Origin: Pyrinomonadaceae bacterium
Lineage (GTDB): Bacteria; Acidobacteriota; Blastocatellia; Pyrinomonadales; Pyrinomonadaceae
Length of the DNA: 64,000 nt
Direction of reading: 5' to 3'
Assembly: GCA_030841085.1 (NCBI GenBank)
Contig: JAVEDP010000034.1
Coordinates: 1 to 64,000 of the forward strand
Part shown: positions 45,555 to 48,711 of the stretch, piece by piece
Layout: every line of letters begins with the position of its first letter
Position numbering within the stretch: position 1 is the stretch's first letter
Position numbers and translations under genes: made by a program
The notes under the pieces: model-generated
Seen by the model: only the letters and a program-made list of their open reading frames with translations
Databases searched by the model: none
What the model was told of the DNA's origin: nothing

Positions 45555-47003
45555 CTAATACTTGGCCACGCCTGGGTCGACTTCATCGGACCAGGCAGTA
45601 ATCCCGCCCTTGAGATTTACCAACTTTCCCTGAAAGCCAGCCTGCTTCAAAGCCTCGATAGCTTTGGCGCTGCGCACGCCGCCCTTGCAATGCACGACTG
45701 TTTCGCGCGCAGCATCGATCTCGTTCATGCGATTGACTACCTGCGCCAGCGGAATCAGCTTCGTATTTGGAATGCGCGCAATTTCATATTCGCCCGGCTC
45801 GCGCACGTCGATGATTTGCAAATCGTCGGCCCGATCGAGACGCTGCTTGAGTTCGGTTGCAGTGATCTCCTCGAGCTTTGGCGCCTCAACTTGCTGCGAC
45901 GGAGCCAGCCCGCAGAATTGCTCGTAGTCAATCAGTTCCTTGATCGTCGGATTCTCACCGCATACCGGGCAGTTGGGATCTTTGCGTAACTTGAACTCGC
46001 GAAACTTCATATGCCAGGCGTCAAACAGCAACAAGCGATTCACGAGAGTGTCTTCGGCGCCGAGAATGATCTTGATCGTTTCGTTTGCCTGAATTGCGCC
46101 GACGATTCCCGGCAGCACACCGAGCACGCCGCCTTCCGCACATGAAGGAACCAGACCAGGCGGCGGCGGTTCAGGATAAAGACAGCGATAGCAGGCGCCA
46201 CGGTCGGCCCAAAACACACTTGCCTGTCCTTCAAAGCGGAAGATCGATCCGTAGACGTTTGGTTTGCCGGTTAGAACACACGCATCGTTAACGAGATAAC
46301 GAGTGGGAAAGTTATCGGTACCATCAACGATGATGTCGTAATTTTTAAAGAGAGCCAGCGCATTGTCGCTGCTGAGTCTGACGTCATGCGTTTCAATTTC
46401 AACGTGCGGATTAATGTCGGCGAGCCGTTCGCGCGCCGAATCAACTTTTCGCCGGCCGACGTCCTTCGTGCCATGAACAATCTGGCGTTGCAAATTGGAA
46501 GAATCAACCACATCGAAATCAACCAGGCCCAGCCGGCCCACACCCGCCGCGGCCAGGTACATTCCCAGCGGCGCGCCTAATCCGCCGGTGCCGATCGCCA
46601 GCACGCTCGCCGCTTTCAAACGTCTCTGCCCTTCGAAACCAACCTCGGGCATGATCAAGTGACGGCTGTAGCGCGCAATCTCTTCATTCGAAAGCGCGGG
46701 CAACTCCTTCACATCCGCCTCAGCAGTTGAACCACCGGCGATTGAAGGAACGATCATCAACGTGTCGCCATCTTTCAATGGCGTATCAGCACCGGATTGA
46801 TGACGGATGTCTTCATCGTTTAGGTAGACGTTCACAAAACTGCGCAATTTATTTTTGTCGTCGTAAAGATGGCGGCGCAGTTCGGCGTATTGCGAACTCA
46901 ACTGATCGAGCGCTTCACCGGCCGTTGCGGCCTGCAACTCGATGCGCGACTTGCCTTCTGCAAAGTTGCGCAAGGCGGTGGGTATGGCAATCGTAACTAA
47001 CAT
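45555..47003 (-). CDS. CysO-MoeZ fusion: ubiquitin-like sulfur carrier + E1-like adenylyltransferase + rhodanese
   Basis: This is a 482-residue three-domain protein. Residues 1-91 are a ubiquitin-fold sulfur carrier close to CysO, with RSFVNVYLNDEDIR, LKDGDTLMIVP and an internal SIAGGS (G90-G91). Residues about 105-345 are an E1-like domain: ATP loop GTGGLGAPLGMYLAAAGVG, YRCLYP and CPVCGENP zinc pairs, and catalytic-type Cys in PSCAEGGVLG. Residues about 380-482 form a rhodanese with active Cys in VVHCKGGVRSA. CysO normally ends in Gly-Gly, which the E1 adenylates and loads with sulfur. Here the Gly-Gly is internal, so a protease must release it, or internal initiation must free the E1. A GTG at 46712-46710 with GAGG just upstream would start the E1 alone. 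It follows the JAMM protease gene by 1 nt. Confidence 0.9.
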   Translation of the reverse strand: MLVTIAIPTALRNFAEGKSRIELQAATAGEALDQLSSQYAELRRHLYDDKNKLRSFVNVYLNDEDIRHQSGADTPLKDGDTLMIVPSIAGGSTAEADVKELPALSNEEIARYSRHLIMPEVGFEGQRRLKAASVLAIGTGGLGAPLGMYLAAAGVGRLGLVDFDVVDSSNLQRQIVHGTKDVGRRKVDSARERLADINPHVEIETHDVRLSSDNALALFKNYDIIVDGTDNFPTRYLVNDACVLTGKPNVYGSIFRFEGQASVFWADRGACYRCLYPEPPPPGLVPSCAEGGVLGVLPGIVGAIQANETIKIILGAEDTLVNRLLLFDAWHMKFREFKLRKDPNCPVCGENPTIKELIDYEQFCGLAPSQQVEAPKLEEITATELKQRLDRADDLQIIDVREPGEYEIARIPNTKLIPLAQVVNRMNEIDAARETVVHCKGGVRSAKAIEALKQAGFQGKLVNLKGGITAWSDEVDPGVAKY

Positions 47004-47004
47004 C

Positions 47005-47433
47005 TCAATTTCCTTTCAGAATATCTTCCTCTGCAAAGCGGGTTCGATCTGTTTGCATCTCCCAGGAACGCAAATCTTCCGCCTGGCCCGATTTAATGGC
47101 GACGACTATGTATGAATAGACGGGCCATGCGTGCTCGAGGTCGTAAGCCGACGGCACGGCCGGATGGTCCGGATGCGAATGATAGAACCCGACTACCTCA
47201 AGGCCCTTTGCCGCAGCGTGTTGTTCACCGCGCAACAATTCTTCCGGGCGAATTAAGAAGCGGTTGCGCTTGGCCGCTTCCTCACGAGCATTCGAGATCG
47301 GAAAAATTTCTGCGCAAACTTTCTTGCCCTCGTTTTCGAAGCGGCCTAACAAGAGTCCGCAACACTCGTACGGGTAATCGCGTTCGCCATGTGCCGCGAT
47401 CTCGGCGTGTTGTTCAGTTGTCAATTGCAACAT
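47005..47433 (-). CDS. Mec-like JAMM metallopeptidase
   Basis: This is a 142-residue JAMM/MPN peptidase. The zinc motif is intact: HSHPDHPAVPSAYD (His-x-His then Asp), with an earlier catalytic Glu in YPYECCGLLLG. In mycobacteria Mec releases cysteine from the CysO-cysteine adduct, and in related systems a JAMM protease trims residues after the Gly-Gly of a sulfur carrier. Either role fits here, and trimming would be needed for the downstream fused carrier. The gene is coupled to the fusion gene: TGA stop, 1 nt, ATG. cysM lies 278 nt upstream with palindromic repeats between. Confidence 0.92.
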   Translation of the reverse strand: MLQLTTEQHAEIAAHGERDYPYECCGLLLGRFENEGKKVCAEIFPISNAREEAAKRNRFLIRPEELLRGEQHAAAKGLEVVGFYHSHPDHPAVPSAYDLEHAWPVYSYIVVAIKSGQAEDLRSWEMQTDRTRFAEEDILKGN

Positions 47434-47486: not shown

Positions 47487-47682
47487 CTACTGCGGCTCTG
47501 CCGCCTTCCTTGCGGTAAGCCTATGGCTTACCGGAGCCTGCCTTTTGTTCTCGAGGCTGCGCCTCCGCTCCCAACTTCTGACAGATAATCGCAAAAGGTG
47601 GAGGCATAGCCTGGAGAAGAGTGCAGTTCCCCGGTAAGCCATAGGCTTACCGCACGGAAGGCGGCAGAGCCGCAAGCAGTCA
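47487..47682. repeat. Concentric nested inverted repeat inside the cys operon
   Basis: The outer pair is tgcggctctgccgccttcc and ggaaggcggcagagccgca. The middle pair is ggtaagcctatggcttacc and ggtaagccataggcttacc. The inner pair is ggctgcgcctcc and ggaggcatagcc. It sits between cysM and the JAMM gene, and could act as a terminator, processing site or mRNA stabiliser. Confidence 0.88.
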
Positions 47683-47711: not shown

Positions 47712-48635
47712 TCACTCAACATACTTCTCGCCACCATCGCATAGAATGGTTACCACGACTGCGTCTTCACTCAACGTCCGCGCCAATCGCAAAGCTGCAA
47801 ACACGTTCGCGCCTGAACTTGGACCAACAAACAATCCTTCTTCTTTGGCCAGGCGTTGCGTCATTACTAGGGCATCGTCCGTTGCGACTTCGACGTTCTC
47901 GTCGGCCAGCGCCGGATCGTAAATTCCGGGAACCATGGCCGTCTGCAAATGCTTAAGTCCTTCGAGACCATGCAATGGCGAATCCGGCTGCATCGCGATC
48001 GCTTGAACCTGCAGGTTGAATAACTTCAAGCGGCGCACAACTCCAACAAACGTTCCAGTCGTGCCCAGTCCGGCGACGAAATGTGTGACGCGCCCTTCCG
48101 TTTGTTCCCAAATCTCCGGCGCCGTCGTGTCATAGTGCGCGCGCCAGTTCGCATCGTTGTTGTATTGATCCGGATAGAAATATTTTTCCGGCTCGTTACG
48201 AAACATTTCACGCGCCACTAACTGTGCGCCGTCAGTCGATTGCAGCGGATCAGTTTCGATGATTTGCACGCCAAAGCTGCGGAGGATCTGCTTGCGCTGA
48301 CGACTGGCATTCTTCGGCAAACACAACGCCACCGGATAGCCGCGCGCCGCCCCGATCATCGCGTAGGCAATGCCGGTGTTGCCGCTGGTCGCATCGAGAA
48401 TGGTCATGCCCGGCAGCAACGATCCGGAACGCTCGCCCGCCAGAATCATTTGCAGTGCGGGACGATCCTTCACCGAGCCCCCCGGATTCAGATGTTCAGC
48501 CTTCGCAAACACCGAAACGCCATCCGGCAATCCGTCCGTAATACGCCGCAGTTGGATCAGCGGCGTGCCGCCGATGCTGGTTTCGATTGAAGTCTTTGCT
48601 TCCAGTTGCGGTTGTTCTGAAATGCCGGCGCTCAT
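47712..48635 (-). CDS. cysM: CysM-type cysteine synthase
   Basis: This is a 307-residue fold-type II PLP enzyme starting at ATG 48635 (AGGA is close upstream). A longer TTG start at 48671 lies in the terminator U-run and is unlikely. Family motifs: PLP Lys in PGGSVKDRPALQ, TSGNTGIAYAMI, the phosphate-binding GLGTTGTFVGV, and PSSGANVFAAL. Length and motifs match mycobacterial CysM, which makes cysteine from O-phosphoserine with the thiocarboxylated CysO protein as sulfur donor. The JAMM and CysO-E1 genes downstream support that role rather than the sulfide-using CysK role. Confidence 0.9.
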   Translation of the reverse strand: MSAGISEQPQLEAKTSIETSIGGTPLIQLRRITDGLPDGVSVFAKAEHLNPGGSVKDRPALQMILAGERSGSLLPGMTILDATSGNTGIAYAMIGAARGYPVALCLPKNASRQRKQILRSFGVQIIETDPLQSTDGAQLVAREMFRNEPEKYFYPDQYNNDANWRAHYDTTAPEIWEQTEGRVTHFVAGLGTTGTFVGVVRRLKLFNLQVQAIAMQPDSPLHGLEGLKHLQTAMVPGIYDPALADENVEVATDDALVMTQRLAKEEGLFVGPSSGANVFAALRLARTLSEDAVVVTILCDGGEKYVE

Positions 48636-48669
48636 ATTCCTGTACCTGGATCCGAAAATTATCTCCACC

Positions 48670-48711
48670 AAAAGTTAACCGGCCGCGAATTTCTTTTCGA
48701 TTCGCGACCGG
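48670..48711 (-). terminator. Intrinsic terminator between leader peptide and cysM (attenuator)
   Basis: On the minus strand ccggtcgcgaat (48711-48700), a 9-nt loop, and attcgcggccgg (48690-48679) form a 12-bp stem with one G-U pair, followed by ttaactttt. It stands 25 nt after the leader stop and 44 nt before the cysM start. An alternative pairing exists: its 5' arm (48703-48712) is perfectly complementary over 10 nt to 48775-48784 inside the leader gene. Forming that hairpin would prevent the terminator. Confidence 0.85.

Follow-up and report, generated by a model that had tools for sequence, protein, structure and literature searches.

In a 64,000-nt stretch of a Pyrinomonadaceae genome (assembly GCA_030841085.1, contig JAVEDP010000034.1, positions 1 to 64,000, hereafter the window), one gene encodes a CysO-like sulfur carrier, a MoeZ-like E1 adenylyltransferase, and a rhodanese as a single polypeptide. 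Sequence comparison makes it quite probable that this chain is a precursor whose cleavage follows Gly91 and is most likely the work of the JAMM metallopeptidase encoded next to it, and that it feeds a cysteine route through CysO of the kind found in Mycobacterium.

Architecture of the fusion

The fusion gene is a stop-free open reading frame (ORF) of 482 residues on the minus strand, in which a CysO domain, a linker, the E1, and the rhodanese follow one another. An earlier note on this DNA had described such a chain, with the carrier's Gly90-Gly91 internal, and both the ORF and Pfam confirm it. The ThiS, ThiF, and rhodanese families match residues 7–91, 112–347, and 381–473, each above its cut-off, with the carrier scoring 51.7 bits against a ThiS cut-off of 22.5. 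The junction reads A89-G90-G91/S92. Two PDB chains, 4n6e_B (a ThiS/MoaD family protein) and 3dwg_C, which we take to be a CysO chain, match the carrier over residues 1–91, and the E1-rhodanese part is nearest to MoeB/MoeZ models and to Uba4 and MoeB structures. Across 33 fusions, the G138–G143 region, C288, and C271/C274/C345/C348 of the E1 are invariant, presumably as functional residues, as are C439, R444, and S445 of the rhodanese, where Cys439 is presumably the candidate persulfide cysteine. The chain thus contains a MoeZ-type E1 and a rhodanese with key residues intact, as in the CysO cysteine pathway, and a ThiS/MoaD-fold carrier whose Gly-Gly is internal in the primary product and would become terminal only after the proposed cut.

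An AlphaFold model built from the 33 fusions has a mean predicted local distance difference test score (pLDDT) of 87.9. The flanking domains are predicted well, and the score is below 50 for residues 90–98, which comprise Gly90, Gly91, and the first part of the linker. In the prediction the junction is accessible to a protease; the model does not bear on binding of the JAMM peptidase.

Recurrence and gene context

The fusion recurs in other genomes, which rules out chance or an assembly artefact as its origin. Among the matches listed for the phylum Acidobacteriota, which reach down to about E = 5e-145 and may miss weaker fusions, an uninterrupted CysO-E1 frame is present in at least 89 of 396 genomes, the window's genome included; 333 of the 396 have a match. 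The count derives from at least 90 genomes with CysO-to-E1 matches, less genome G237, where a stop separates CysO from the E1, and one of the 89 (G242) is interrupted by a contig end. In a further sixty of the genomes listed, the match starts only at about residue 79–103, corresponding to an E1-rhodanese without the carrier. We retrieved and annotated 80 loci with a CysO-E1 match (nine of one genus were left out) and 40 of the 60 E1-rhodanese-only loci. The resulting phylum set comprises 80 fusions, namely 79 retrieved loci and the window, and 41 others, among which G237 (locus L095) is counted as split. A second set, overlapping the first in part, holds the best 80 of at least 587 confirmed stretches from a scan of named genomes; 55 of these 80 carry the fusion, a proportion that is no frequency. 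By title, 33 of the 55 are Acidobacteriota, and the other 22 are Gemmatimonadetes, Chloroflexi, Armatimonadota-type, Ignavibacteria, Omnitrophica, Elusimicrobia, KSB1, Caldithrix, Bacteroidetes, archaea, or simply 'bacterium'; nearly all of these hosts are metagenome bins, and individual labels may be wrong.

A JAMM gene lies in 72 of the 80 phylum fusion loci. The 41 non-fused loci contain a JAMM in 30 cases, a free CysO in 26, and JAMM, free CysO, and cysteine synthase together in 22. The gene order cysteine synthase–JAMM–cysO–moeZ is common to fused and split loci, and the fusion therefore unites two adjacent genes.

The gene context also bears on what the carrier serves. A 2024 survey of archaeal fusions reported MoaD-MoeB fusions and MoaD-MoeBR fusions (clusters 356.2 and 356.3), gave the latter more than 55% identity to acidobacterial proteins, and suggested transfer from Acidobacteria (PMC11237513). 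MoaD-MoeBR has the same domain order as the window's fusion, carrier–MoeB–rhodanese in one chain, a likeness by architecture alone. The survey labels the fusion as molybdopterin synthesis and, in its accessible parts, notes the need for cleavage for MoaD-MoaE and discusses neither a JAMM/cysteine synthase context nor cleavage of MoaD-MoeBR. On that label, the window's carrier would be MoaD. MoeZR sulfurates CysO in Mycobacterium and serves MoaD too (PMC3227635), so the E1, once freed, may well act on MoaD in trans. However, cysteine synthase and JAMM occur together in 63 of the 80 phylum and 46 of the 55 named-genome fusion loci, and of five loci titled as archaeal (L215, L230, L236, L240, and L246), all contain a JAMM and three a cysteine synthase. 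The source genome, moreover, has a separate MoaD-MoaE fusion, and the carrier is matched by the presumed CysO structure. From gene context, we judge a MoaD identity highly unlikely; the context points to cysteine, with service to MoaD in trans possible.

The junction is invariant and the linker drifts

Pooling both sets yielded 135 fusion frames (9 repeats; 126 distinct CysO domains), every one of which has Ala-Gly-Gly at the junction. In the 134 copies that could be aligned, whose median pairwise identity is 53%, only four of the 91 CysO columns are invariant: P86, A89, G90, and G91. The linker that follows ranges from 2 to 38 residues. Over 123 distinct stretches, column entropy is 0 at G91, 2.1 bits at the first position after it (P1′), and 2.9–3.6 bits at P2′–P10′. 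Of the 135 fusions, 52 have Ser and 50 have Ala at P1′ (102 together), as compared with 98 Ser and 370 Ala (468 together) among 1645 other linker positions. A conserved internal Gly-Gly followed by a freely varying linker is the pattern of JAMM-processed carrier fusions of the MoaD-MoaE kind. We know of no chemistry or job for a Gly-Gly tail inside an intact chain, and its invariance thus argues for exposure by cleavage.

The linker also bears on the earlier note's alternative, in which the E1-rhodanese would be made alone by internal initiation at an in-frame GTG, leaving the full-length product with a separate part. The GTG and its upstream GAGG are indeed present in the window (Table 1), but a start codon with a Shine-Dalgarno-like stretch lies inside the linker of only 9 of 80 fusions. 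Such a start could coexist with cleavage and cannot free the CysO C terminus. We reject it as the main explanation, for which it is extremely unlikely, and regard it as at most a local extra.

A Mec-type JAMM accompanies the fusion

The earlier note had placed a JAMM peptidase gene 1 nt upstream of the fusion, and the search bears this out: the gene is intact, with a single nucleotide between its stop codon and the fusion ATG. The protein retains E23 and H85-S-H87-x7-S95-x2-D98, which we take to have their usual JAMM roles, and is a Mec-type JAMM with E, HxH, and D, as in the CysO cysteine pathway. The HxHx7SxxD motif is present in all 72 JAMMs of the phylum fusion loci. Seven of the remaining eight phylum fusion genomes have a JAMM of 76–100 bits elsewhere in the assembly, each beside a cysteine synthase match and in the same clade as the adjacent JAMMs, and contig ends account for part of the in-locus absences (L054, L066, L098). 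The earlier note had asked whether homologous fusions all keep a JAMM gene nearby. Such fusions do recur, and most loci keep the gene; strict adjacency does not hold throughout, and genome-wide 79 of the 80 fusion-bearing phylum genomes yielded a Mec-type JAMM.

In the named-genome set, 49 of the 55 fusion loci contain a JAMM. Two of the six without one were already counted (L205 is the contig of G140, L207 that of G367), and three of the six have a JAMM elsewhere, at 59.6, 77.7, and 94.1 bits, the clade assignment covering none of these three. As in carrier fusions processed by a JAMM, the protease goes with the fusion, apart from two exceptions, G140 and L250, which sit at contig ends. For comparison, we took, in handle order, 60 phylum genomes whose E1-rhodanese match was absent or too weak to list (architecture was not checked individually). 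A JAMM of at least 65 bits was found in 5 of the 60, and 23 of the 60 pass the JAMM family cut-off if weak matches, presumably RadC-like, are counted.

A tree of 173 locus and 15 distal JAMMs contains a second clade (support 97) that holds the source genome's other JAMM; an earlier tree, with only part of the adjacent JAMMs, had shown this clade in the source genome and seven further genomes. This clade lends some weight to a reading in which a second JAMM, or a housekeeping enzyme, cuts after Gly91, with the adjacent JAMM only freeing cysteine from CysO-Cys; for MoaX, a carrier fusion discussed below, the protease was unidentified (PMC4326299). Against this, it is the Mec-type clade that goes with the fusion, in 79 of the 80 phylum genomes. 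The second clade occurs in 7 of 19 genomes searched for JAMMs assembly-wide, of which only returned loci were placed on the tree, and by tree placement includes none of the 72 JAMMs of phylum fusion loci and none of the seven distal ones. We consider a cut by another protease unlikely.

Free CysO genes carry tails beyond Gly-Gly

Separate cysO genes offer a comparison. Among 46 free CysO proteins with a JAMM in the locus, a number that excludes the free CysO genes of loci also holding a fusion (L055, L068), 45 have 1–25 residues beyond Gly-Gly, and three of the five without a JAMM in the locus end exactly at Gly-Gly. The association between JAMM and tail (Fisher p = 0.0019) has little weight, since the JAMM-less class comprises five loci and the rows are related. 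Some tails are a single residue (V, C, L, R, D, E), and others consist of local repeats, recognized by eye; such variety is expected if whatever follows Gly-Gly is removed. Because separate cysO genes also carry residues past Gly-Gly, one may regard the fused E1 as an extreme case of such a C-terminal tail, and the fusion as one end of a continuum.

Many free CysO tails are rich in cysteine, with 33 Cys among 275 tail residues in 52 genes versus 3 among 1780 linker residues in the 135 fusions. These tails occur in L124, L128, L129, L132, L135, L145–L148, L151, L156, L235, L243–L245, L247, L255, L256, L262, L263, L266, and L267; the loci are mostly Acidobacteriota and related to one another, which makes the number of independent events smaller than that of loci. 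C, CCR, CICR, TSCRL, and similar tails may imitate CysO-Cys, or they could act as an attenuator of cysteine codons placed ahead of the E1 gene, and a hairpin-like repeat follows the stop codon in L145–L148 and L247 (by eye).

Other carriers of the source genome

The source assembly (4.69 Mb, 43 contigs) yielded two E1 enzymes, two JAMMs (the second in L008), and four ThiS-family carriers: a MoaD-MoaE fusion, ThiS, the window's fusion, and a free CysO paralogue of 93 residues. All four are blocked after Gly-Gly, by MoaE, Val, the E1, and Leu, respectively. The paralogue ends in GG-Leu and is therefore no ready-made carrier either. The earlier note had counted a free carrier gene elsewhere that serves the pathway as a refutation of its reading. 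A free CysO gene does exist here, which goes part of the way, yet its end is blocked, and no free CysO was found by the ThiS-family search in two (G389 and G299) of nine fusion genomes examined for carriers, where the search returned ThiS, a MoaD-type carrier, and the fusion.

The paralogue is also the starting point of a different reading, namely that the fusion stays whole, with its CysO domain as a docking or regulatory ubiquitin-like module, and that free CysO, here the GG-Leu protein, is the working carrier. Two fusion loci, L055 (7671–8048) and L068 (830–1111), contain an extra, separate CysO ending exactly at Gly-Gly, consistent with such a division of labor. Weighing against it are the blocked end of the paralogue, the result for G389 and G299, and the place of Gly-Gly among the four invariant columns. 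An intact working fusion appears very unlikely.

Two further features concern these carriers and their relatives. In G075, G086, and G377, ThiS has 10–23 residues past GGG, and in G038, G063, G114, G299, and G389 it ends at GGG. Near the CysO paralogue of the source genome lies a frame that, from its translation, we take to resemble a sialidase/BNR-repeat protein.

Proposed processing and points against it

In the route we favor, the fusion product would be a precursor that the JAMM from the preceding gene probably cuts between Gly91 and Ser92. The products would be free CysO, ending in Gly-Gly, and an E1-rhodanese slightly extended at its N terminus. Sulfur would then flow through CysO-thiocarboxylate and CysO-Cys as in Mycobacterium, and the freed E1-rhodanese may charge further carriers, as MoeZR does. 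Because the cut after Gly91 and that of CysO-Cys both break an amide bond following Gly-Gly, a single protease can carry out the two reactions. The earlier note had called for a cut after Gly91 and named the adjacent JAMM as the first candidate, which the invariant Ala-Gly-Gly, the drifting linker, and the company of the JAMM support; the free-CysO tails and the disordered junction in the AlphaFold model also fit. Its further statement that sulfur transfer, activation, and carrier sit in one molecule applies to the precursor, and probably only to it.

Several observations weigh against this proposal. The JAMM could serve cysteine release only, as Mec does; in Mycobacterium, Mec acts beside a CysO that already ends in Gly-Gly. 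The free CysO paralogue (L004) exists in the source genome, and processing could be the task of the second JAMM there (L008). The free CysO of L265 lacks a tail despite a JAMM in the locus, and two JAMM-less ones have tails (L129, and L254, where the contig starts just upstream). Fusion genome G140 yielded no JAMM above the cut-off, its contig stopping 631 nt upstream of the fusion, and the genome of L250, where the contig starts within CysO, yielded none at all. The JAMM near the L249 fusion is a member of the second clade, and the E1 there is without a rhodanese.

The blocked Gly-Gly end might also be no accident but selected as a maturation gate. Carriers of this lineage, joined to the E1 or to MoaE or given a short tail, as all four of the source genome are, would stay inert until a JAMM is active. 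The GG-Cys tails of some free CysOs mimic the pathway product, so the cysteine-releasing protease would also set the carrier amount and tie its supply to cysteine flux. We offer this idea tentatively, as rather doubtful.

Relation to known systems

In Mycobacterium, CysO is a separate protein that ends at Gly-Gly. The QbsE/QbsD (thioquinolobactin) and HcyS/HcyD systems also have a JAMM that strips residues after the carrier's Gly-Gly before activation; the tail is short there, whereas in the window's fusion it is an entire E1-rhodanese. The Mycobacterium CysO-Mec-CysM-MoeZ pathway has the same four activities, carrier fold, and Gly-Gly end, and its JAMM and cysteine synthase genes lie next to the carrier gene, as here (PMC3227635). 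MoeZ, however, is encoded elsewhere in Mycobacterium, whereas here carrier and E1-rhodanese form one chain that would need to be cut first.

The closest precedent for the cut is found in MoaD-MoaE fusions. In Deinococcus, the JAMM protease DR0402 cuts the MoaD-MoaE fusion DR2607. The precursor cPMP builds up in the DR0402 mutant, and the authors take this to mean that activation of MoaD-MoaE depends on DR0402 (PMC8832034). In MoaX, the cut falls between Gly82 and Ser83 and is required (PMC4326299). As proposed here, a carrier with an internal Gly-Gly is freed by proteolysis, with Ser at P1′ in MoaX and a JAMM protease in Deinococcus. The partner differs: MoaE is a user of the sulfur, and the window's partner is the enzyme that activates the carrier. 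Precursors that join ubiquitin to a ribosomal protein offer a wider parallel, in which an N-terminal ubiquitin-like domain is cut after Gly-Gly, with a different partner and pathway (PMC11354881).

The operon was described by Iyer in 2006 as ThiS/MoaD, E1-rhodanese, JAB, and cysteine synthase, an acidobacterium included (Table 1, row 4c, of PMC1779556). It is the same operon but consists of four genes; the E1 is fused to rhodanese, and the accessible parts of that paper contain no carrier fusion in this operon and no description of tail processing. The Ub-like-ThiF fusions of the Campylobacter kind in the same paper have an N-terminal domain distinct from ThiS, whereas the window's domain matches ThiS. 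The operon (2006), the MoaD-MoeBR fusion (2024), and JAMM cutting of MoaD-MoaE are already in print. We found no open-access text that treats the fusion as CysO or ties it to a JAMM, which is weak evidence of absence.

If processed as proposed, the fusion would be a bacterial parallel to ubiquitin precursors, with the ubiquitin-like carrier joined to the very enzyme that activates it. This would give Mec-type JAMM proteases a second role at an earlier stage, the maturation of the carrier, and a CysO or MoeZ predicted from such a fusion gene would be a precursor.

Fused and split genes alternate

A FastTree phylogeny of 159 E1-rhodanese sequences (113 fused, 46 split) requires at least 20 changes between the fused and split states. 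L251 was omitted from it because its frame is broken inside the E1. The well-supported (starred) branches force 11 changes, and shuffled labels need 40 on average. An earlier E1 tree of 174 rows, in which L251 was mislabeled as split, gave 19 fused/split changes, and 25 for fused versus all others, of which 15 were forced. The alternation is frequent enough to serve as a natural experiment. L095 (G237) is a near-intermediate, with CysO, a stop, 21 nt, and then the E1.

Other, rare joinings occur in the same neighborhood. In a single genome, L070 (4034–5890) encodes JAMM, CysO, E1, and rhodanese in one 618-residue frame, which joins protease, carrier, activator, and sulfurtransferase in one chain. 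In L158 (4013–5671), the JAMM is joined directly to the E1-rhodanese, and no CysO was found between them. Cysteine synthase and JAMM form one frame in L209 (1–1470) and L229 (168–1460), and their matches also share one open frame in L163 and L166.

Neighboring genes and features

The window's neighborhood is the full cysteine synthase–JAMM–carrier–E1-rhodanese set (Table 1). The cysteine synthase gene lies upstream on the same strand, in the same cluster as in the CysO cysteine pathway. Its listed start is TTG, with an in-frame ATG 12 codons further on. Escherichia coli CysM ranks above the mycobacterial enzyme among its relatives, and the sequence does not discriminate for substrate.

Table 1 Features of the fusion locus in the window and of the other carriers in the source genome.
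Feature	Position	Strand	Evidence or remark
CysO-E1-rhodanese fusion gene	45555..47003	-	single ORF, 482 residues
CysO-like sulfur carrier domain, residues 1-91, end A89-G90-G91	46731..47003	-	ThiS 7-91; 4n6e_B and 3dwg_C matches over 1-91
Linker, residues 92-102 (11 residues)	46698..46730	-	length and letters variable among fusions; pLDDT <50 at residues 90-98
Proposed cleavage point Gly91/Ser92	46731/46730	-	inferred
MoeZ/MoeB-type E1 adenylyltransferase domain, residues 103-350	45954..46697	-	ThiF 277 bits, 112-347
Rhodanese domain, residues 381-473	45585..45863	-	PF00581 63.1 bits
In-frame GTG (Val98), GAGG upstream	46710..46712	-	possible but unconserved internal E1 start
Mec-type JAMM metallopeptidase gene, 142 residues	47005..47433	-	PF14464 (Prok-JAB) 93.4 bits; 2kcq and JAMM1 structure matches; motif; Mec-type clade
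Cysteine synthase (CysM/CysK family) gene	47712..48671	-	PALP 239.5 bits; best NCBIfam model cysM, under its cut-off
Inverted repeat, 44 nt	47491..47674		98% complementary; arms 96 nt apart
MoaD-MoaE fusion	L001 1465-2235		MoaE after Gly-Gly
ThiS	L002 1495-1698		one Val after Gly-Gly
Free CysO paralogue, 93 residues	L004 1495-1776		one Leu after Gly-Gly (GG-Leu)

The inverted repeat lies between the JAMM and cysteine synthase genes and is part of a dispersed family; the genome has 104 matches to it, with many places counted once per strand.

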